Origin: Gammaproteobacteria bacterium
Lineage (GTDB): Bacteria > Pseudomonadota > Gammaproteobacteria > SZUA-152
DNA: 40,484 nt
Assembly (NCBI GenBank): GCA_022627515.1
Contig: JAKEGK010000285.1
Location: forward strand, 1-40,484
Reading direction: 5' to 3'
Shown one piece after another: positions 28,814 through 37,177 of this stretch (position 1 is its first letter; every line of letters starts with the position of its first letter). Below the pieces are notes generated by a model. It was not told the DNA's origin, ran no database searches, and saw only the letters and a list, made by a program, of their open reading frames with translations. A program made the position numbers and the translations under genes.

Positions 28814-29602
28814 CTACAGGAAAAATTCCTGAATCAGCAGGATAATGATATCGATGGCAATCAGCCAGATGATGATCCATTCCAGCATCGAGGAATGGGC
28901 ATGCTTTTGTTCGTCGGCAATCATCTCCAGCAGATCCTGGATCGTTTCCAGTTTCTTGTTCAATACTTCGATCCTGGGCCGGATTTCCAGGTAATCAGCA
29001 ATCAGGCTGTAATAATACTGCAATTCCGGATACTCCCAGAAGAATTCCGGCACATCCAGTAAATCAAAATGCAGCGAGACGTCGCTTTTGGTCAGATAAA
29101 GGAAACCACGCAGCTTGGCAAGATCCTTGCGCCGCAAACCGGACCGGCCTGTGCTGGCGATACTCTCGGGAATATGCACCGTGGAGGTAATGGTTTTTTG
29201 CACGCTGGATTCAAACTGGCCCAACTTGGTCGATTGCGCAATACCATGCGAAACGGCCAACCGTGAAAAAATGTCATCATCGTTTAAGGTAATATGATCA
29301 TTTTTAAGTGACACCTGCGGCGCATTGAGTTCATAGGTAAACTCATCGTCCAGCACATCCGTCATTGGCTCACGGGCAAATTCCTTCAGCACCCCCAGCA
29401 ACGCATTCCGATCAATCGTTGATACGCGCCAGAACACCGCCACACCATAATCAAATATAAAAACCTCGCCGTTCTGCCAGTTCAACTGCAGCACATTGCG
29501 ATATACCGAGGCGCCATTTGCCTGCGCCAGACGATCACGCAACGCCGGAAAATCATAATATCCGCACTGGCATATGGCGTACACATCAGAGGTTTTTTCC
29601 AT
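28814..29602 (-). CDS. RMD1/YagE-type (DUF155) membrane-anchored protein
   Basis: The 262-residue protein has the features of the RMD1/DUF155 family: a beta-rich N-half with GEVFIFDYGVAVFW, then DEFTYEL and the central VSHGIAQSTKLGQFESSVQ region. The C-terminal half is largely helical, with LRGFLYLTKSDVSLHFDLLDVPEFFWE and a coiled-coil-like stretch up to about 230. It ends in a single hydrophobic helix (about 239-260, LEWIIIWLIAIDIIILLIQ), as in many family members. Eukaryotic relatives include yeast Rmd1 and mitochondrial RMND1; the biochemical role of bacterial members is unknown. It starts 24 bp after the ATP-grasp ligase gene on the same strand, so the two probably form one transcript and this protein may anchor or scaffold the ligase at the membrane. 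Confidence 0.85.
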   Translation of the reverse strand: MEKTSDVYAICQCGYYDFPALRDRLAQANGASVYRNVLQLNWQNGEVFIFDYGVAVFWRVSTIDRNALLGVLKEFAREPMTDVLDDEFTYELNAPQVSLKNDHITLNDDDIFSRLAVSHGIAQSTKLGQFESSVQKTITSTVHIPESIASTGRSGLRRKDLAKLRGFLYLTKSDVSLHFDLLDVPEFFWEYPELQYYYSLIADYLEIRPRIEVLNKKLETIQDLLEMIADEQKHAHSSMLEWIIIWLIAIDIIILLIQEFFL

Positions 29603-29626: not shown

Positions 29627-31099
29627 CTAGCGCCGGCGCGCAACCATGCGGCGTAAAAATTCTTCCATGATTTCCACGTAAAGTTGTTCACCGAGGTATT
29701 TGTCTTCGACACCCGACTCAATGCTGGGATTGTCGTTCACTTCAATCACTACCGCGCGATCATCCGATTGCTTGATATCCACGCCGTAAAAGCCATCACC
29801 GATGAGGCGGCTCGCCTTGGTGGCCACATCCAGCACCGGCTTGGGCACTTCAAAAGTTGGCAGGGTGTCATAACCGCCGGCCTTGACTTCCTTACTGCCG
29901 TATTGGTAGATCTGCCAGTGGTCTTTCACCATGTAATAACGGCAGGCGTATAAAGGCTTGTTGTTCAGCACGCCGATCCGCCAGTCGTAACCGGTGTAGA
30001 GAAACTCCTGCGCCAACAACAAAGCTGATTTTTGCATCAACGCCTTGCTCTCTTTTTCCAGTTCCTGCAGGCTTTCCACCTTGACCACGCCACGGGAAAA
30101 GGAACCATCCGGAATTTTCAGCACCATCGGAAAACCGATACTGTTCACCAGTTGCTGCAGGGATTCTTCCGAAGTGCTGTTCAAAATCTCGGTGCGCGGG
30201 GTGGGAATATTATGGGTTTGCAACAGATCCGCCAGATAGATCTTGTTGGTGCAGCGCAGAATGGAAGTGGGATCATCAATGACCACCAGGTCTTCAGCTT
30301 CCGCTTTTTTCGCAAAACGGTAAGTGTGGTGATCCACCATGGTGGTTTCCCGGATAAACAGGCCATCGTATTCCGGCAAGCGCACATAATCTTTTTTGCC
30401 TATGAATTCAGCGGCAATACCCAACTGGTCCGCGGCTCGCACAAACCGCTTCAGGGCTTTGGCATCGCTGGGGGGCATCTTTTCTTCAGGATCAACCAGT
30501 ATCGCCAGATCATAACGGTAAGTTTTGCGTGACTTCGGACGGCGCCACATCTTGCTGCTGAACTTTTCAAAGGTGTTGGCAAAGGCTTCCTGCTCTTCGG
30601 GGGACGTCAATTCAACCAGCGATATGGGTTTGATGCTCTTGATCGCCCAGGTTTTCTTGAAATTCAGCACAACTTCCAGTATCGGGCAGGGAATACGCTC
30701 GAATACCTCGCGCGCCAGCGGCAGTAATTCCTGCTGCAAACAATCGCCAAACCAGCAGCGGAACGCGCGGGTATCGCCATCCGCCGCCGCCGGCAACTTG
30801 ATCAGTTGTTTTTCCATATCTTCATCTTCAAGTTGCAGAACGGCAAGCGACTTACGGCCCACGTCATTCAAGGTGCGCACCGACGGCAACACATGGTGCC
30901 CGCGCGCTTCAGCCAGCAGTGAACAATAGTAACCGGTGCTTAAATATTTATAACGCCGGCTCAAATTGATGACGCGCACTCTGCCGTGATCCGATTTATG
31001 AACACGGTGTAAATAGTCATCAAAGGTAATTACATCCTGGCTGGGATAATAGGGTGACCAGTCCTTTAAGTTATCCACTACGACAAAAAAATCCGACAT
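29627..31099 (-). CDS. RimK-like ATP-grasp ligase with RLAN-type N-terminal domain
   Basis: 490 residues. The N-terminal half (about 1-200, MSDFFVVVDNLKDWSPYYPS ... RVINLSRRYKYLSTGYYCSLLAEARGH) matches the RLAN (RimK-like ATP-grasp N-terminal) family. The C-terminal part (about 285-490) is an ATP-grasp domain with KIYLADLLQTHNIPTPRTEI, FPMVLKIPDGSFSRGVVKV, the AQEFLYTGYDWRIGVL strand, and metal ligands Asp441 and Glu453/Asn455 in VIEVNDNPS. RimK-type enzymes form amide bonds between a carboxylate (often the C-terminal Glu of a protein) and an amino acid, using ATP. The start is ATG 31099; an in-frame ATG at 31120 and longer reading would cut into the operator palindromes. It is divergent to a DUF2817 peptidase, GNAT-C39 and DUF1704 genes, which defines the module. 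Confidence 0.88.
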   Translation of the reverse strand: MSDFFVVVDNLKDWSPYYPSQDVITFDDYLHRVHKSDHGRVRVINLSRRYKYLSTGYYCSLLAEARGHHVLPSVRTLNDVGRKSLAVLQLEDEDMEKQLIKLPAAADGDTRAFRCWFGDCLQQELLPLAREVFERIPCPILEVVLNFKKTWAIKSIKPISLVELTSPEEQEAFANTFEKFSSKMWRRPKSRKTYRYDLAILVDPEEKMPPSDAKALKRFVRAADQLGIAAEFIGKKDYVRLPEYDGLFIRETTMVDHHTYRFAKKAEAEDLVVIDDPTSILRCTNKIYLADLLQTHNIPTPRTEILNSTSEESLQQLVNSIGFPMVLKIPDGSFSRGVVKVESLQELEKESKALMQKSALLLAQEFLYTGYDWRIGVLNNKPLYACRYYMVKDHWQIYQYGSKEVKAGGYDTLPTFEVPKPVLDVATKASRLIGDGFYGVDIKQSDDRAVVIEVNDNPSIESGVEDKYLGEQLYVEIMEEFLRRMVARRR

Positions 31100-31158
31100 G
31101 AGCGTATCCCGAAAAGTCATACGATTGCCCGCATTGTCATGAATAGCGCTAAAATTCT

Positions 31159-31186
31159 CAACAAATATTTTTTGTTGTTGCAACAA
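31159..31186. promoter_or_regulatory. Overlapping CAACAA/TTGTTG palindromes in divergent promoter
   Basis: CAACAAA-tattt-TTTGTTG (31159-31177) and TTGTTGCAACAA (31175-31186) are perfect inverted repeats that share a half-site, giving three TTGTTG-type half-sites in 28 bp. They lie centrally in the 144-bp gap between the ATP-grasp ligase and DUF2817 gene starts. Their position fits an operator that controls both divergent transcripts; no regulator gene is encoded next to it. Confidence 0.55.
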
Positions 31187-31243
31187 TCAGCGCCACTGTA
31201 TGATAAATCCGTACCTTGTGTTATTACTGCACACAAACTTATT

Positions 31244-32347
31244 ATGAAAAATAACATCAATCTTTCCTGTTTCCCGGCCAGTTACACCAGCGCACGGCAG
31301 CACTTGTTGCAAACCCTGCAGCAAATTTCCGGCCAGCTAACGCGGCGCCACCAGACGTTTAGTCACCCCTTAACCGGTCCTAATGGACAGGCGCTGCACC
31401 TGGACTGGCTCTGGCTGGGACAAAATGAAGCACCTGAAAACATTCTGGTGCTGATTTCCGGCACCCACGGCGTGGAAGGTTTTACCGGCTCGGCAATCCA
31501 GTCTCACTGGCTGCCCTATCTTGCGGAGCAACTGGCAAAACATCCGGAACTGGGGGTGATCATTATACATGCCCTGAATCCATGGGGATTTGCTTGGCTG
31601 CGGCGCTATGACCACGAAGGCATTGATCTGAATCGTAACTTTATCGACTTTAATGCCACGCTACCTCAGAACAAAAACTATGATTTGATTCACAAAGATT
31701 TATTTTGCGATACATCAAGGCAAGTGGCTGACACTCTGGCATACTGGAAATCAAAACTGGGCCATGAGGACTTCCACGCCGTGATTACCCGCGGGCAATA
31801 CCAGCACCCCGATGGCCTGTTTTATGGAGGCGCCTCGCCCAGTTGGTCACGCCAGGTTCTGGAGCAGGCCTGCCGGACCACGGCGTTGCAGAACGCCCGG
31901 CGCATTGCCGCCATTGATTTGCATACCGGACTTGGTCCCTACGGCCACGGTGAAGTGATTAATGATCATCAGCCCGGCAGCGCAGGTTTTAACCTCGCTT
32001 GCCAATGGTATGGCGCCAATGCCCAGTCCGCCCTGTTGGGTGAATCGTGTTCGCCGCCCAAAAGCGGATTAGTCGATTATTTCTGGCATGATCTTATCGG
32101 CGGCCGCGGTTGTTTCGTGACGCTGGAGTACGGCACCTACAGCCTGGAAAAATTGCTTACCGTTTCCTGTGAGGAACAACGTTACCATAATAGTTATGGC
32201 CAAAACCTGGAACAACGCACTATCAATCATGCCGCGGTTACAGCGATACATGATTTTTTCTATCCCAAGGATCACGTATGGCGGGAACTAGTGTTGTTCC
32301 GCGCAGGCCAGGTCATCACCATGGCCCTGCAAGGCATATTAAAATGA
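31244..32347 (+). CDS. DUF2817 family M14-type zinc carboxypeptidase
   Basis: 367 residues with the M14 zinc-peptidase pattern. The ligands are His75/Glu78 in GTHGVEGF and His227 in AAIDLHTGLG. Substrate-carboxylate residues are Asn130-Arg131 in GIDLNRNF, and the catalytic-glutamate region is Glu295 in FVTLEYGTYS. DUF2817 belongs to the M14 superfamily together with succinylglutamate desuccinylases and tubulin deglutamylases, so removal of an amino acid or acyl group from a C-terminus or amine is likely. ATG 31244 was chosen; an in-frame start at 31139 would read through the divergent operator. The stop codon overlaps the next gene's start (ATGA), indicating translational coupling with the GNAT-C39 protein. 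Confidence 0.87.
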   Translation: MKNNINLSCFPASYTSARQHLLQTLQQISGQLTRRHQTFSHPLTGPNGQALHLDWLWLGQNEAPENILVLISGTHGVEGFTGSAIQSHWLPYLAEQLAKHPELGVIIIHALNPWGFAWLRRYDHEGIDLNRNFIDFNATLPQNKNYDLIHKDLFCDTSRQVADTLAYWKSKLGHEDFHAVITRGQYQHPDGLFYGGASPSWSRQVLEQACRTTALQNARRIAAIDLHTGLGPYGHGEVINDHQPGSAGFNLACQWYGANAQSALLGESCSPPKSGLVDYFWHDLIGGRGCFVTLEYGTYSLEKLLTVSCEEQRYHNSYGQNLEQRTINHAAVTAIHDFFYPKDHVWRELVLFRAGQVITMALQGILK

Positions 32348-33453
32348 AACAGATACATATCAGGTCCGCTGACAAAAATGACCTGGATCGCCTGGTGGAA
32401 ATCGAAAATACCTGCTTTACCACTGATATCCTGTCACGCCGCAGTTTCCAACGTTTTATCCGTCCCGGCGCCCACGACGTCAAGGTTGCGGAACTGAATA
32501 ACGAGATTGTGGGTTATACCCTGGTGTTGTACCGCACCGGCACCAGTCTGGCGCGCATGTATTCCATTGCCGTCATTCCGGAGCAACAGGGGAAAGGCAT
32601 TGCCCGGAGGCTCATGGAGGCCGCTGAACAGGCTGGCCGTGAACGGTTTTGCGCTTTTATGCGCCTGGAAGTCAACGTCAACAACGCGCCTGCTATTCAC
32701 TTATATAAAAAACTCGGCTACCGCCAAATAGGCATGATTGAGAATTACTACGATGATGGCAGTGACGCCCTGCGCATGGAAAAACGGATCTATGCCGGTC
32801 TCGTACGAAGGGGCACGGTAACCCCCTATTATGAACAGACCACCGATTTTACCTGCGGTCCAGCCGCTCTCATGATGGCCATGAAAACCATTAACCCGGA
32901 CTATGAAATGGTGCGGCAGGAAGAACTGCAAATCTGGCGCGAAGCCACCACGATTTTCATGACATCCGGCCATGGCGGCTGTTCGCCGCACGGCCTTGCA
33001 TTAAGCGCCTGGCAGCGCGGATTCCAGGTTGAACTCTATATTAATCAACCCGGTCCGCCCTTTCTCGACGGTGTGCGTGATTCCGACAAAAAAGCCGTGA
33101 TCGAACTGGTCCATGACGATTTTATTGCGCGCATTAAAGCAACCGGTATTAAATTGCATGTGGAGGACATCTCACCCGACAAACTGCTGGATATCCTGCG
33201 CAGCAGCAAAGCCATTATCGCCCTGATCAGCACCTGGCGCCTCAACCGCAACAAGGCGCCGCACTGGGTGTTTGTCGCCAATGCGGATGAACATTTTGTC
33301 TATGTCAACGATCCGGATATCTCCGACGAAGGCGCGTGGCTATCAGAAATCGACTATATCCAGGTACCCATTAGCATTCCCGAATTCATCAACATGGCAT
33401 GTTTCGGGCAAAGCCGTCTGCGCTGTTTATTAACGCTCGATAAAAAATCGTAA
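32344..33453 (+). CDS. GNAT acetyltransferase fused to C39-like cysteine peptidase
   Basis: 369 residues in two domains. Residues 1-150 form a RimI-like GNAT domain with the acetyl-CoA loop EQQGKGIARRL (80-90) and VNVNNAPAIHLYKKLGY. Residues 155-360 form a papain-fold C39-type domain with catalytic Cys171 in TDFTCGPAALMMAM, upstream Gln165, and the His/Asp pair His307 and Asp323/325 in APHWVFVANADEHFVYVNDPD. C39 domains usually cleave after double-glycine leaders of exported peptides, but here there is no ABC transporter; the fusion to an acetyltransferase is typical of RimK-like ligase neighbourhoods. The short polypeptide MAGTSV... upstream in the same frame is rejected because ATG 32344 overlaps the DUF2817 stop. 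The next gene follows 68 bp later. Confidence 0.88.
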   Translation: MKQIHIRSADKNDLDRLVEIENTCFTTDILSRRSFQRFIRPGAHDVKVAELNNEIVGYTLVLYRTGTSLARMYSIAVIPEQQGKGIARRLMEAAEQAGRERFCAFMRLEVNVNNAPAIHLYKKLGYRQIGMIENYYDDGSDALRMEKRIYAGLVRRGTVTPYYEQTTDFTCGPAALMMAMKTINPDYEMVRQEELQIWREATTIFMTSGHGGCSPHGLALSAWQRGFQVELYINQPGPPFLDGVRDSDKKAVIELVHDDFIARIKATGIKLHVEDISPDKLLDILRSSKAIIALISTWRLNRNKAPHWVFVANADEHFVYVNDPDISDEGAWLSEIDYIQVPISIPEFINMACFGQSRLRCLLTLDKKS

Positions 33454-33521: not shown

Positions 33522-34859
33522 ATGGCTGCAAACACCTACCGTGAGAAACTGAAAACCCTGTCCGATCAGTTGGTTGCCATTCAGCGGCCCATTATGATCC
33601 TTGATGCCATCAAGTGGCCGCGTCATGTGCAGCAGCAATTTATGGACAATGGGGCCCGTAATTTGCCACCAATCGACACTGCTTATTACGAACGGCAACG
33701 CCTGTCTTTTGATCCGCAGGCAAAGCAAAATGAGCTCAAACAACTGCAGCGGTCGATCAATAAAAACCTGGGCAAACATGATGCGCTGGGAAAAATATTA
33801 CGCCATACAGTGGATCAATACCGTATCGTTATCGACATGCTGGCGCAACGCGGGAAAAGCGGATTCCTGCCACTGAGTCAGAAGTTGTACGGCAGTGCGC
33901 AGGATCATTTACGGGGCGACCGCAAATCGATTATTGAGCTGGGTGAACGCCTGTGCCATATTTTTTCCCTGCCAGCCGCGGCGCATCTTGCCCGCCCCTA
34001 CCCGAAAAAACTCTCGGCGCAGGAAGCTGTAAATACTCTGCAAAAAAAACTCAGCGGCTACTTCAACGACGCCGGCTACAAAGTCTGCCTCAGTGACGGC
34101 ATCATTTCGGATGCCTCGGCGGGTGGAGACACTATTAAGATCAACAGCAACGCCAGCTTTTCCGAACTGGATTTAAAAGTACTGGAAGTGCATGAAGGCT
34201 GGGTGCATGTGGGCAGCACGCTGAATGGCCGGCGCCAGCCATGGGCCACATGGTTAAGTGTGGGTTCACCGCGCATCACCGCTACCCAGGAAGGACTTGC
34301 CATAATCATGGAAACGCTGACGTTCAGTTCGTTTCCCAACCGCGCGCGCCGCATCAGCGACCGGGTCGTCGCCATCGACATGGCCGAAAAAGGCGCGGAT
34401 TTTATCGAAGTCTACCGGTACTTTGTAAACAGCGGGCTCAGTGAACACGACAGCTACATTATCGCGCAGCGCACTTTCCGCGGCGGCCAGGTAACCGGCG
34501 GCGCCTGCTTTACCAAGGATCTTTCTTATGTGAAAGGTTTTGTGGAAACCGTCAACTTTATCCGCAGCGCCATTCTCAGCGGTGTGCCGGAAATTCTGCC
34601 CATGCTGTTTGTCGGAAAAGTCACCCTGGATGATTTGCCCAGTCTCTATGAACATTCCCTGGAAGGGCTGGTCAAACCACCCGCGTATTTGCCGCCAATG
34701 TTCCGCGACCTCAATGGCCTGTATACCTGGTTTGGTTTTTCCAGCGGCATGACCCTGGTGGATCTGGGGCGGGTAAAACGCCATTTTGAAAAATTGTTTG
34801 CCACTTTGCCCGCTGTCAGTCCGTTGATTGCGGCGGAACCGGATGTTGAAATCGATTAG
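33522..34859 (+). CDS. DUF1704 family QEGLA-motif metallopeptidase (MATCAP-like)
   Basis: 445 residues of the DUF1704 family, annotated in databases as 'flavohemoglobin expression-modulating QEGLA motif protein'. The metal motif HEGWVH (224-229, HExxxH type) is followed by TQEGLA (255-260), the family's second signature, where Glu completes the zinc site. In animals this family (MATCAP/KIAA0895L, TMCP) comprises carboxypeptidases that remove the C-terminal Tyr or Glu of tubulin; bacterial members lack a proven substrate. The gene is third in the rightward transcript after DUF2817 and GNAT-C39. No strong Shine-Dalgarno is seen before the ATG, consistent with coupling or weak initiation. There is a large N-terminal helical region (about 1-170). 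Confidence 0.87.
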   Translation: MAANTYREKLKTLSDQLVAIQRPIMILDAIKWPRHVQQQFMDNGARNLPPIDTAYYERQRLSFDPQAKQNELKQLQRSINKNLGKHDALGKILRHTVDQYRIVIDMLAQRGKSGFLPLSQKLYGSAQDHLRGDRKSIIELGERLCHIFSLPAAAHLARPYPKKLSAQEAVNTLQKKLSGYFNDAGYKVCLSDGIISDASAGGDTIKINSNASFSELDLKVLEVHEGWVHVGSTLNGRRQPWATWLSVGSPRITATQEGLAIIMETLTFSSFPNRARRISDRVVAIDMAEKGADFIEVYRYFVNSGLSEHDSYIIAQRTFRGGQVTGGACFTKDLSYVKGFVETVNFIRSAILSGVPEILPMLFVGKVTLDDLPSLYEHSLEGLVKPPAYLPPMFRDLNGLYTWFGFSSGMTLVDLGRVKRHFEKLFATLPAVSPLIAAEPDVEID

Positions 34860-35124
34860 CCGGTTGATACTTAATAAATCGAATTCGAAGGCAGATTCTC
34901 AAATCGTTTCGAACATTTTTTATGGATCTTTTTTTTCGCGTAGCCTGTTCGAACCAGCATTCGCAAGCGGCAAGTAAACGCAATTAAATCCGGTTGAATG
35001 GAAACATAAAACCACTGTCAGAACCGTGTTGGCATTGCCAGTTTCGCAGCATTCTCATTCATTTGGTAATAGCGGTAAACACGCGCCGCGCCAAAATGGT
35101 ATTCCAATCTGATATTCATTGGTC
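34860..35124. other. Intergenic region before the hydrolase-thioredoxin gene
   Basis: AT-rich with T-runs at 34915-34921 and 34930-34937. TTCGAA occurs twice (about 34884 and 34908) and could pair, but no strong terminator hairpin is present. It probably holds the promoter of the following gene. Confidence 0.35.
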
Positions 35125-36399
35125 ATGACGAAAAACAAATTTTATTGCTTCTTCATCCTGCATATCGCCCTGGTAACTACTCCGGTGTATGCCGGTGCGA
35201 ATAACACAAGCCAGGAACATCAGATTACCGCCAGCGACGGCACCGAACTTGCCTTGACCCGCTACCCCGCCAAAGGTGAACACCTGATTATCTGGATCGC
35301 ACCCGGTTACAGCGTCCAGGAAAGATCCGTGCAAGCCGCTCTCCAGCTGGCGGAAAACGGAATCGAAATCTGGGAAATTGACCTTGCCGAAGCGATGTTC
35401 CTTCCGCACAGCACGGAGCTGATGCGCGAGTTTTCCGGCGAATACGTCGCGGATCTGATACAGGCGGCGTATAAGGCAACCGGCAAAAAAATTCTCCTGA
35501 CTGCGCAGTCCTATGGCGCCATTCCTTTGTTGAGCGGCGTGCGCGCCTGGCAGGCACGCCAACCCGGCACACCTTATGTCGCCGGCGCGATATTGTTTTC
35601 ACCGGACCTGTATACCACGGTTCCTTCTCTCGGAGAGGAGCCGGAGTATCTTCCCATTGCTTCCGCAGCCAATATCCCTATTATGATTTTTCAGGACGGG
35701 CTGCGCGGTAATCGCTGGTATGTCGACAAATTGATAGAAACCCTCGTTTCCGGCGGCAGCCAGCCGGTGCTGAAAATCCTGCCCGGTGTAACCGGACTGT
35801 TTTACAGCGAGGATCATGCCCCGGCATCGTTACAGGCGATCGCGGATTTGCCGCGTGAAATTAAAGCCGCTGTGCGGCTGCTGGAAAAAATGTCCTATCC
35901 TCTGGCGCCGGCGCCCTTGAAAAAACAATTTCAGCCGGTGGGCAGCGGCATTGATATCCGGTTGAAGCCGTTCAAGGGTAAATTCCCGCCATATCCAATC
36001 GATCTTCAGGATGCGTTCGGAACGCGTTTTCAGCGCAGCGACTATAAAGGGCGGATTACAGTAATTAATTTCTGGGCCTCATGGTGCCCGCCCTGCGTTG
36101 AGGAAATTCCTTCACTCAACCGCTTGCGGGACAAATTGCGGAATGCGCCTTTTGAACTGATTTCCGTTAACTACGCGGAAAGCCCAGATACGATTCTGGA
36201 ATTTTTAAAAAAGGTTGATGTGAATTTTCCCGTACTGCTTGACGAGACCGGGCAAGTGTCCGCACGCTGGAAAGTGGTGGCTTTTCCATCCACCTTTATT
36301 ATTGGCCCCGACGGCAGAATTCATTACGGCGTCAACGCCGCCATACATTGGGACAGCCCGGAAGTTGTCAGCTCATTGAAATCGCTAGTCAGGCAATAG
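35125..36399 (+). CDS. Exported alpha/beta-hydrolase fused to TlpA/ResA-like thioredoxin
   Basis: 424 residues with three parts. Residues 1-24 are a signal peptide (FFILHIALVTTPVYAGA). Residues about 30-250 form an alpha/beta-hydrolase-like domain with a nucleophile-elbow-like ILLTAQSYGAIPLL (Ser129) and a His near FYSEDHAP (231). Residues about 285-424 form a TlpA/ResA-type thioredoxin domain with the active site WASWCPPCVEE (Cys321/Cys324), cis-Pro in AFPST and FIIGPDGRIHYG. TlpA-type domains reduce disulfides in the periplasm, for example on apocytochromes c. The hydrolase half lacks the strict GxSxG, so it may be a binding rather than catalytic domain. The ATG at 35125 is preferred over a TTG two codons upstream. 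It is monocistronic and converges with the small secreted protein. Confidence 0.85.
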   Translation: MTKNKFYCFFILHIALVTTPVYAGANNTSQEHQITASDGTELALTRYPAKGEHLIIWIAPGYSVQERSVQAALQLAENGIEIWEIDLAEAMFLPHSTELMREFSGEYVADLIQAAYKATGKKILLTAQSYGAIPLLSGVRAWQARQPGTPYVAGAILFSPDLYTTVPSLGEEPEYLPIASAANIPIMIFQDGLRGNRWYVDKLIETLVSGGSQPVLKILPGVTGLFYSEDHAPASLQAIADLPREIKAAVRLLEKMSYPLAPAPLKKQFQPVGSGIDIRLKPFKGKFPPYPIDLQDAFGTRFQRSDYKGRITVINFWASWCPPCVEEIPSLNRLRDKLRNAPFELISVNYAESPDTILEFLKKVDVNFPVLLDETGQVSARWKVVAFPSTFIIGPDGRIHYGVNAAIHWDSPEVVSSLKSLVRQ

Positions 36400-36513: not shown

Positions 36514-36978
36514 TCAGTTGTGCTTGTTATTCTTTTTGCCGTTTGCCTTCGCCTGCTGCTGCTTCATTTTGCCAGGCGGGTATTTCGCCTTGTGCTCAGA
36601 ATGTTTTGTGTAAGGTTTATCGCTGTCCATATCAATACTGATATGCGAACCAAGGCTCACTTTAAGGCTGCCTGGCAGCGCAGCTGATAACTTCCATGCG
36701 CCATCCGAAAGATAAAAATAAACATCGCGGCCGGTATCAAAATAGACCTGCGCGTCCGGGTAATAATGGTAACTGTGCTTCGCGCGATAACCATGAGCCG
36801 GCGCATGATCCGGCGGTCCGCTTTTCGCCGGACTGCTCTTGGCAGGCTCTGCTACGCCGTCTCCTATTTTGATGCCAATATCAAGATCCAAAGCGTTTGC
36901 CTGAGGCGCACCCGCCAGTAACACCATGGAAAGTCCAAATGCCATCATATGACTGAAGAAAATTCCAGTTTTTTTCAT
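36514..36978 (-). CDS. Small secreted protein, Gly/His/Lys-rich, unknown function
   Basis: 154 residues. The signal peptide MKKTGIFFSHMMAFGLSMVLL ends at QANA-L (about residue 29). The mature region carries a conserved-looking block HSYHYYPDAQVYFDTGRDVYFYLSDGAWKLSAALP followed by LKVSLGSHISIDMDSDKPYTKHSEHKAKYPPG and a Lys/Asn/His-rich tail (MKQQQAKANGKKNNKHN). Proteins with this block are common in gammaproteobacteria as short secreted proteins of unknown role; the His and Lys richness may mean metal or polyanion binding. ATG 36978 has AGAGG nine bases upstream. An in-frame start 99 bp further upstream would add an unlikely N-terminus. Confidence 0.75.
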   Translation of the reverse strand: MKKTGIFFSHMMAFGLSMVLLAGAPQANALDLDIGIKIGDGVAEPAKSSPAKSGPPDHAPAHGYRAKHSYHYYPDAQVYFDTGRDVYFYLSDGAWKLSAALPGSLKVSLGSHISIDMDSDKPYTKHSEHKAKYPPGKMKQQQAKANGKKNNKHN

Positions 36979-37177
36979 CGCTAAACCTCTTTTATTGTTT
37001 ATAGCCGTGTTCTTATATCGGCTGGAACATAAAGGTGCATTAATAGAGATTAACGAGTGATTTATATAAACGTGCACTTGATCGCGTCACATCTTTTGTG
37101 TGACGCGTGTCACGACTCGCGGGAAGCCAGGATATCAGTGTTGATCTTCGCGGCGCACTAGCGTAGGGCAGCCACAT

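Follow-up and report, generated by a model that had tools for sequence, protein, structure and literature searches.

A bacterial MATCAP-family predicted metallocarboxypeptidase and its possible link to ATP-grasp amino-acid ligases

The MATCAP gene and its surroundings

The window—the whole stretch of 40,484 nucleotides of gammaproteobacterial DNA that was analysed—encodes a protein of the MATCAP family, whose gene, motifs and neighbours are compiled in Table 1. The open reading frame and its two motifs, HEGWVH and TQEGLA, lie exactly where the original prediction had placed them. The protein matches the Pfam profile PF08014 (MATCAP) with an E-value of 4.5e-133 and 444.2 bits (cut-off 27) and the NCBIfam profile TIGR02421 (QEGLA) with 382.8 bits, compared with a curated cut-off of 338.65. 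In addition, 29 related loci show 59–69% identity to the window gene across the matched segment. Given these matches and relatives, the open reading frame and its motifs are not a product of chance, and the affiliation of the protein with the MATCAP family is secure. This membership is not new, since Pfam already calls PF08014 MATCAP; name and kinship are in the databases, and the window gene adds a further member to the family. Bacterial TIGR02421/QEGLA proteins bear the same motifs, and the window protein—being one of them—shows no difference. Viral contigs that were scanned held no relative of it.

Table 1. Position and annotation of the MATCAP gene, its motifs and its neighbours in the window
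Feature	Position	Strand	Remarks
DUF155 (RMND1/Sif2-Sif3) protein	28814..29602	-	adjoins the RLAN ligase
RLAN + RimK-like ATP-grasp ligase, divergent	29627..31186	-	probable start ATG 31099
DUF2817, M14-like by HxxE-type motif (read from sequence)	31139..32347	+	probable start ATG 31244
GNAT acetyltransferase fused to C39-like peptidase domain DUF3335	32278..33453	+	probable start ATG 32344
MATCAP-family predicted metallocarboxypeptidase, class A	33522..34859	+	445 aa, ATG start; PF08014 / TIGR02421 QEGLA
HEGWVH codons, residues 224-229	34191..34208	+	aligned to human MATCAP1 H280/E281/H285
TQEGLA codons, residues 255-260	34284..34301	+	Glu257 aligned to human E316
C-terminal TlpA/ResA-like thioredoxin domain	35119..36399	+	~290 N-terminal residues without Pfam match
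Protein with signal-like N-terminus (read from sequence)	36514..37077	-	187 aa; no Pfam/NCBIfam match

Upstream of the MATCAP gene and on the same strand, the DUF2817 gene is followed by the GNAT–DUF3335 gene. The stop of the former and the start of the latter overlap as ATGA at 32344–32347, and a gap of 68 bp separates GNAT–DUF3335 from the MATCAP start. The ATP-grasp ligase—referred to as RLAN ligase—is divergent from the MATCAP gene, with these two other reading frames in between. It scores under the RimK-family cut-off (94.2 versus 143.4 bits) and far under the cut-off for S6 glutamate ligase (NF007764; 40.1 versus 331 bits), and hence is not RimK. A relative of the DUF155 protein is also found near MATCAP at another locus, L027.

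A canonical RimK is encoded elsewhere in the window's own genome, together with two tandem retropepsin-type Zn_protease genes (contig C177:1173-3089). The same genome bears a second MATCAP-family gene of class C with the motif HEAFVH (contig C117:6822-7883; L031/L048), which scores 291.3, under the QEGLA cut-off of 338.65, and has no ATP-grasp gene nearby.

Active site and predicted fold

The residues H224, E225, H229, Q256, E257 and G258 are unchanged in 22/22 diverse family members, and R317, R320, K332, D333 and Y336 are likewise invariant across this set. A profile built from these 22 members recovers human MATCAP1 (7z5g, E 1.1e-13; 7z6s, E 5.8e-12), and the motifs are in register in the corresponding alignment: H224/E225/H229/E257 equal human H280/E281/H285/E316, the numbering being read off this profile alignment. 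It is this diverse profile alone that recovers the human enzyme; neither a single-protein phmmer search nor a profile from close relatives only does so. H224 and H229 are the first two predicted metal ligands, E257 is the predicted third and E225 the putative catalytic glutamate. For human TMCP1, passages of PMC10499314 report that the exchanges E281A and E316A strongly lower the activity, and that TMCP1 and TMCP2 strip C-terminal residues and also polyglutamate. Activity data for bacterial MATCAP members were not found in our literature searches.

An AlphaFold model of the window protein, built from 28 sequences (mean pLDDT 83, pTM 0.84), has human MATCAP as its top match in the PDB (Foldseek E 2.6e-6). 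In VIA-align, 306–309 residues align to human MATCAP with a Z of 22.7 and an rmsd of 3.3, followed by a DUF885 protein (Z 16.1) and two putative lipoproteins (Z 13–14), and M32 carboxypeptidases match the model at Z ~9–10. The model is thus most like human MATCAP, at 22.7 versus 16.1 for the next fold, and a fold unlike MATCAP was not obtained. The kinship proposed in the original prediction is thereby backed on three levels—by the profile, by the aligned catalytic and metal residues and by the predicted fold.

With human MATCAP1/TMCP1 and TMCP2 (KIAA0895L and KIAA0895), the window protein shares the Pfam family, the fold, the HExxxH motif with the EG glutamate and the conserved downstream R, R, K-D and Y positions. 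However, the identity to human MATCAP amounts to ~18% over 306 residues, and the motifs read HEGWVH and QEG in the window protein and HEIGTH and EEG in the human one. Human MATCAP acts on tubulin, whereas a tubulin substrate and microtubule binding would not be expected in the window's host.

M32 carboxypeptidases bear an HExxH motif. The window protein carries HExxxH, with the glutamate of the downstream EG aligned as third ligand, and lacks the M32 motif; its likeness to M32 is limited to the fold. M32 carboxypeptidases and DUF885 lipoproteins have the helical metallopeptidase fold in common with it (Z ~9–16), but their fold scores stay below that of MATCAP, the identities are 7–15% and the chains are longer. 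The HExxxH motif is common to M49 dipeptidyl peptidase III, and no DPP III is among the fold matches listed—families outside this comparison are not counted as excluded. We consider it highly probable that the window protein is a metallocarboxypeptidase.

ATP-grasp ligases beside the MATCAP classes

Family members can be split into three classes by motif and gene context, whereby the classes and several of the contrasts were set after the data had been viewed. Class A carries HEG[WL]VH in proteins of ~440 aa and includes the window protein. Class B carries HE[IVL]G.H in proteins of mostly ~650 aa, many of which contain or adjoin an N-formylglutamate-amidohydrolase domain (PF05013), and class C carries HEA..H. 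In a tree of 58 chosen rows—the human segment among them—class A forms a single clade (99/100), and neither class B nor class C comes out as one clade. A broken copy (G027), a fragment with a stop (G347) and two loci without the motif (L027 and L055) are left unclassed; the truncated L026 is yet counted as class A, and L101 and L103 at contig ends as class B. An origin of the eukaryotic enzymes from class B was considered: the class B members L052–L054 carry HEIGTH like the human enzyme. With a very long human branch of unsure placement in the tree, no such origin is claimed.

In class B, an ATP-grasp gene is directly adjacent on the same strand in 19/24 loci, which are not 19 independent events, with one genus repeated among them; the corresponding number for class A and C survey loci is 0/42 (Fisher 2.5e-12), as detected by small home-made HMMs that other ATP-grasp families may escape. 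For the class B loci L095 and L099–L103, five of six belong to one genus, and all but one have the ATP-grasp gene or come from that repeated genus. The class B ATP-grasp gene is glutathione-synthetase/RimK-like, with GSH-S_ATP and RimK domains in the two that were scanned. Annotated records of rhizobial plasmids—including pSymB of Sinorhizobium meliloti—display the order N-formylglutamate amidohydrolase, QEGLA and glutathione synthase/synthetase in 4/4 cases, and annotated records of Vibrio, Pseudoalteromonas and Legionella show no ligase adjacent to the MATCAP-family gene; two stretches from Photobacterium are unannotated. At L095 (G201), a class B MATCAP gene without ATP-grasp neighbour adjoins an AstE_AspA (succinylglutamate desuccinylase/aspartoacylase) gene.

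Repeated association of MATCAP-family genes with ATP-grasp ligases of several kinds is possibly new and may have been described already. Our literature search did not find the class B operon described, and it may already be in print. The treatment of amidoligases by Iyer et al. in 2009 is said to discuss ATP-grasp/peptidase neighbourhoods.

For class A, the connection to a ligase gene is looser. The original prediction took the ligase near the window gene as a clue to the substrate. The RLAN ligase is indeed present and divergent, but it is nearby in only 12/29 nearest relatives, where its gene has the divergent orientation seen in the window and stands two or three genes upstream. Eleven of these 12 are Spongiibacteraceae, and the RLAN-linked rows make up one sub-branch of the tree (94/91), to which the window row is close without being firmly inside. 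RLAN anywhere in the genome is found in 4/17 unlinked nearest relatives, whose whole genomes were searched; this is close to the background frequency of 25/114 Gammaproteobacteria. MATCAP is present in 16 of these 114 genomes, and the two genes lie side by side in the window genome only. Within three genes, an ATP-grasp gene occurs at 0/16 HEGLVH loci and at 15/43 HEGWVH loci (13 of the 15 being RLAN). Most class A loci are without a nearby ATP-grasp gene, and the RLAN ligase is an occasional partner, not an obligate one.

RLAN as an obligate class A partner was initially a candidate, with 6/9 class A versus 19/105 other genomes bearing it (p 0.0034); in the phylum set, it is present in 6/6 HEGWVH genomes. 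The 4/17 unlinked relatives and 4/16 HEGLVH genomes rule this out, and the association vanishes among RimK-positive genomes (p 0.19).

Polyglutamate systems and the proposed trimming function

RimK is present in 9/9 class A survey genomes versus 37/105 others (p 1.7e-4) and, in the phylum set, in 22/22 class A genomes versus 133/376 others. Both sets overlap by the window genome, which leaves 30 distinct class A genomes, all of them RimK-positive. The corresponding numbers are 9/10 for class C and 7/15 for class B genomes. This co-occurrence of RimK and class A may partly reflect clade or shared ancestry, since genomes with RLAN are RimK-positive as well (22/25). At four loci (L023, L042, L058 and L075), RimK lies within five genes of the class A gene: directly divergent at L075, in one and the same gene order at L058 and L023—with a GGDEF-EAL regulator, a response regulator and a sensor kinase in between at L058—and together with Zn_protease and one further gene at L042. 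The linked RimK scores above the S6-ligase cut-off in 3/3 scanned and is an extra copy at L058 (three per genome) and L075 (two per genome). L058 and L075 are located in the Shewanella-like genomes G468 and G396.

In P. fluorescens, rimK shares a transcript with rimA, which encodes a phosphodiesterase, and with rimB, which encodes the protease; cutting by RimB requires five or six glutamates, as stated in passages of PMC11957791. An exopeptidase acting on short tails would complement RimB. MATCAP as a substitute for RimB is ruled out as a general rule: a RimB-type Zn_protease is found in 9/9 class A genomes, and hence a deglutamylase is already at hand in them.

A second putative polyglutamate system is met at the class B loci L099, L101 and L103 of genus g240, which reads as alphaproteobacterial from its relatives—the same phylum as the window's host and another class. 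Here, the class B MATCAP and ATP-grasp genes run into an RloA–RloB–RloC-like cluster, in which genes for Zn_protease, a 7TM inactive transglutaminase and ATPgrasp_ST come after the ATP-grasp gene in the same orientation. At L099, the ATPgrasp_ST gene is TIGR02291 above cut-off, and the transglutaminase gene matches RloB below the strict cut-off. The RimB–RimK and Rlo systems share with the proposed MATCAP pairs the combination of an ATP-grasp ligase and a glutamate-removing peptidase, and some genomes have RimK or Rlo-like genes next to their MATCAP genes. However, RimB and RloA are aspartic endopeptidases, whereas MATCAP is a predicted metallo-exopeptidase, and the window ligase is RLAN-type, unlike the RimK of the rim locus.

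We favour a cytosolic metallocarboxypeptidase that trims the residues added by ATP-grasp amino-acid ligases, a reading to which we assign roughly even chances. H224, H229 and E257 would hold the metal and E225 would activate water; tails or peptides that an ATP-grasp amino-acid ligase has built would lose residues—most likely glutamate—singly from their C-terminus, making ligase and carboxypeptidase a write-and-trim pair. Two candidates for the ligase partner of the window gene are the RLAN-RimK protein, encoded divergently from it, and the S6 glutamate ligase RimK, encoded on contig C177. We infer the enzymatic activity, the C-terminal exo-mode, the preference for glutamate, the identity of the partner ligase and the substrate. 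The idea of a ligase-derived substrate is plausible, but for the window gene it is weaker than originally implied; better support for the ligase link comes from other branches and the wider family, with the class B operons, RimK in 30/30 class A genomes and the few loci at which RimK lies near a class A gene.

As the main alternative, the protein might be a general cytosolic metallocarboxypeptidase with an M32-like housekeeping role in peptide turnover, to which the ligase neighbours of class A would be incidental. The common fold of the M32 carboxypeptidases (Z ~9–10), the majority of class A loci being without a nearby ligase and the 13/17 unlinked near relatives without RLAN would suit such a role. 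We nevertheless regard it as rather unlikely, as class B is tightly tied to ATP-grasp ligases (19/24), RimK is found in all class A genomes and eukaryotic MATCAP relatives, according to passages of PMC10499314, target specific acidic tails.

Clearly less probable is the production or recycling of a small peptide metabolite by MATCAP together with the RLAN ligase, GNAT–DUF3335 and DUF2817, in place of the trimming of protein tails. RLAN and DUF3335 do lie within ~3 kb in 17/18 Gammaproteobacteria with strong DUF3335 matches, and the ATGA overlap in the window, with the MATCAP gene 68 bp further on, points in the same direction; yet the RLAN–DUF3335 module usually comes without MATCAP—they are co-located in 1/16 survey MATCAP genomes, which is the window's—and class A MATCAP often comes without RLAN. 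For a mainly regulatory protein that modulates flavohemoglobin expression speaks the NCBIfam name alone; the single paper found in one literature search to mention QEGLA does no more than use this name. The catalytic residues are intact and invariant and no flavohemoglobin or NO-regulation gene family is among the neighbours scanned, which makes this role very improbable.

If the pairing of ligase and trimming carboxypeptidase is functional, it would provide a substrate for many entries named "flavohemoglobin expression-modulating QEGLA motif protein". A metallo-exopeptidase would then join the aspartic endopeptidases RimB and RloA in bacterial polyglutamylation, and the way in which the tubulin code pairs ligase with carboxypeptidase would have a bacterial precedent. 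That the wider family often stands beside amino-acid-adding enzymes suggests an old add-and-remove cycle. More speculatively, and in our view improbable in its full extent, bacterial MATCAPs might serve as erasers in a prokaryotic cycle of amino-acid tagging that is widespread and possibly tied to osmotic stress, and the eukaryotic tubulin code would reuse its enzyme pairing. The writers would be GSH-like ligases in the class B operons and RimK or RLAN-RimK for class A, attaching glutamate or other residues to the C-termini of proteins or peptides, and MATCAPs would trim these. The tubulin code in turn would combine ATP-grasp TTL/TTLL ligases with MATCAP/TMCP, a pairing that would have existed before in bacterial operons.

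Passages of PMC12239564 describe a joint role of RloA, RloB and RloC in the hypoosmotic tolerance of P. aeruginosa and the cleavage of polyglutamate by RloA. In Photobacterium damselae at 1% NaCl, sections of PMC10308900 give a 38.4-fold increase for A0J47_RS17020 ("GshB") and a 27.5-fold increase for A0J47_RS17025 (QEGLA), with RimK in the top 20 according to the text; the consecutive tags of GshB and QEGLA would fit a class B pair.
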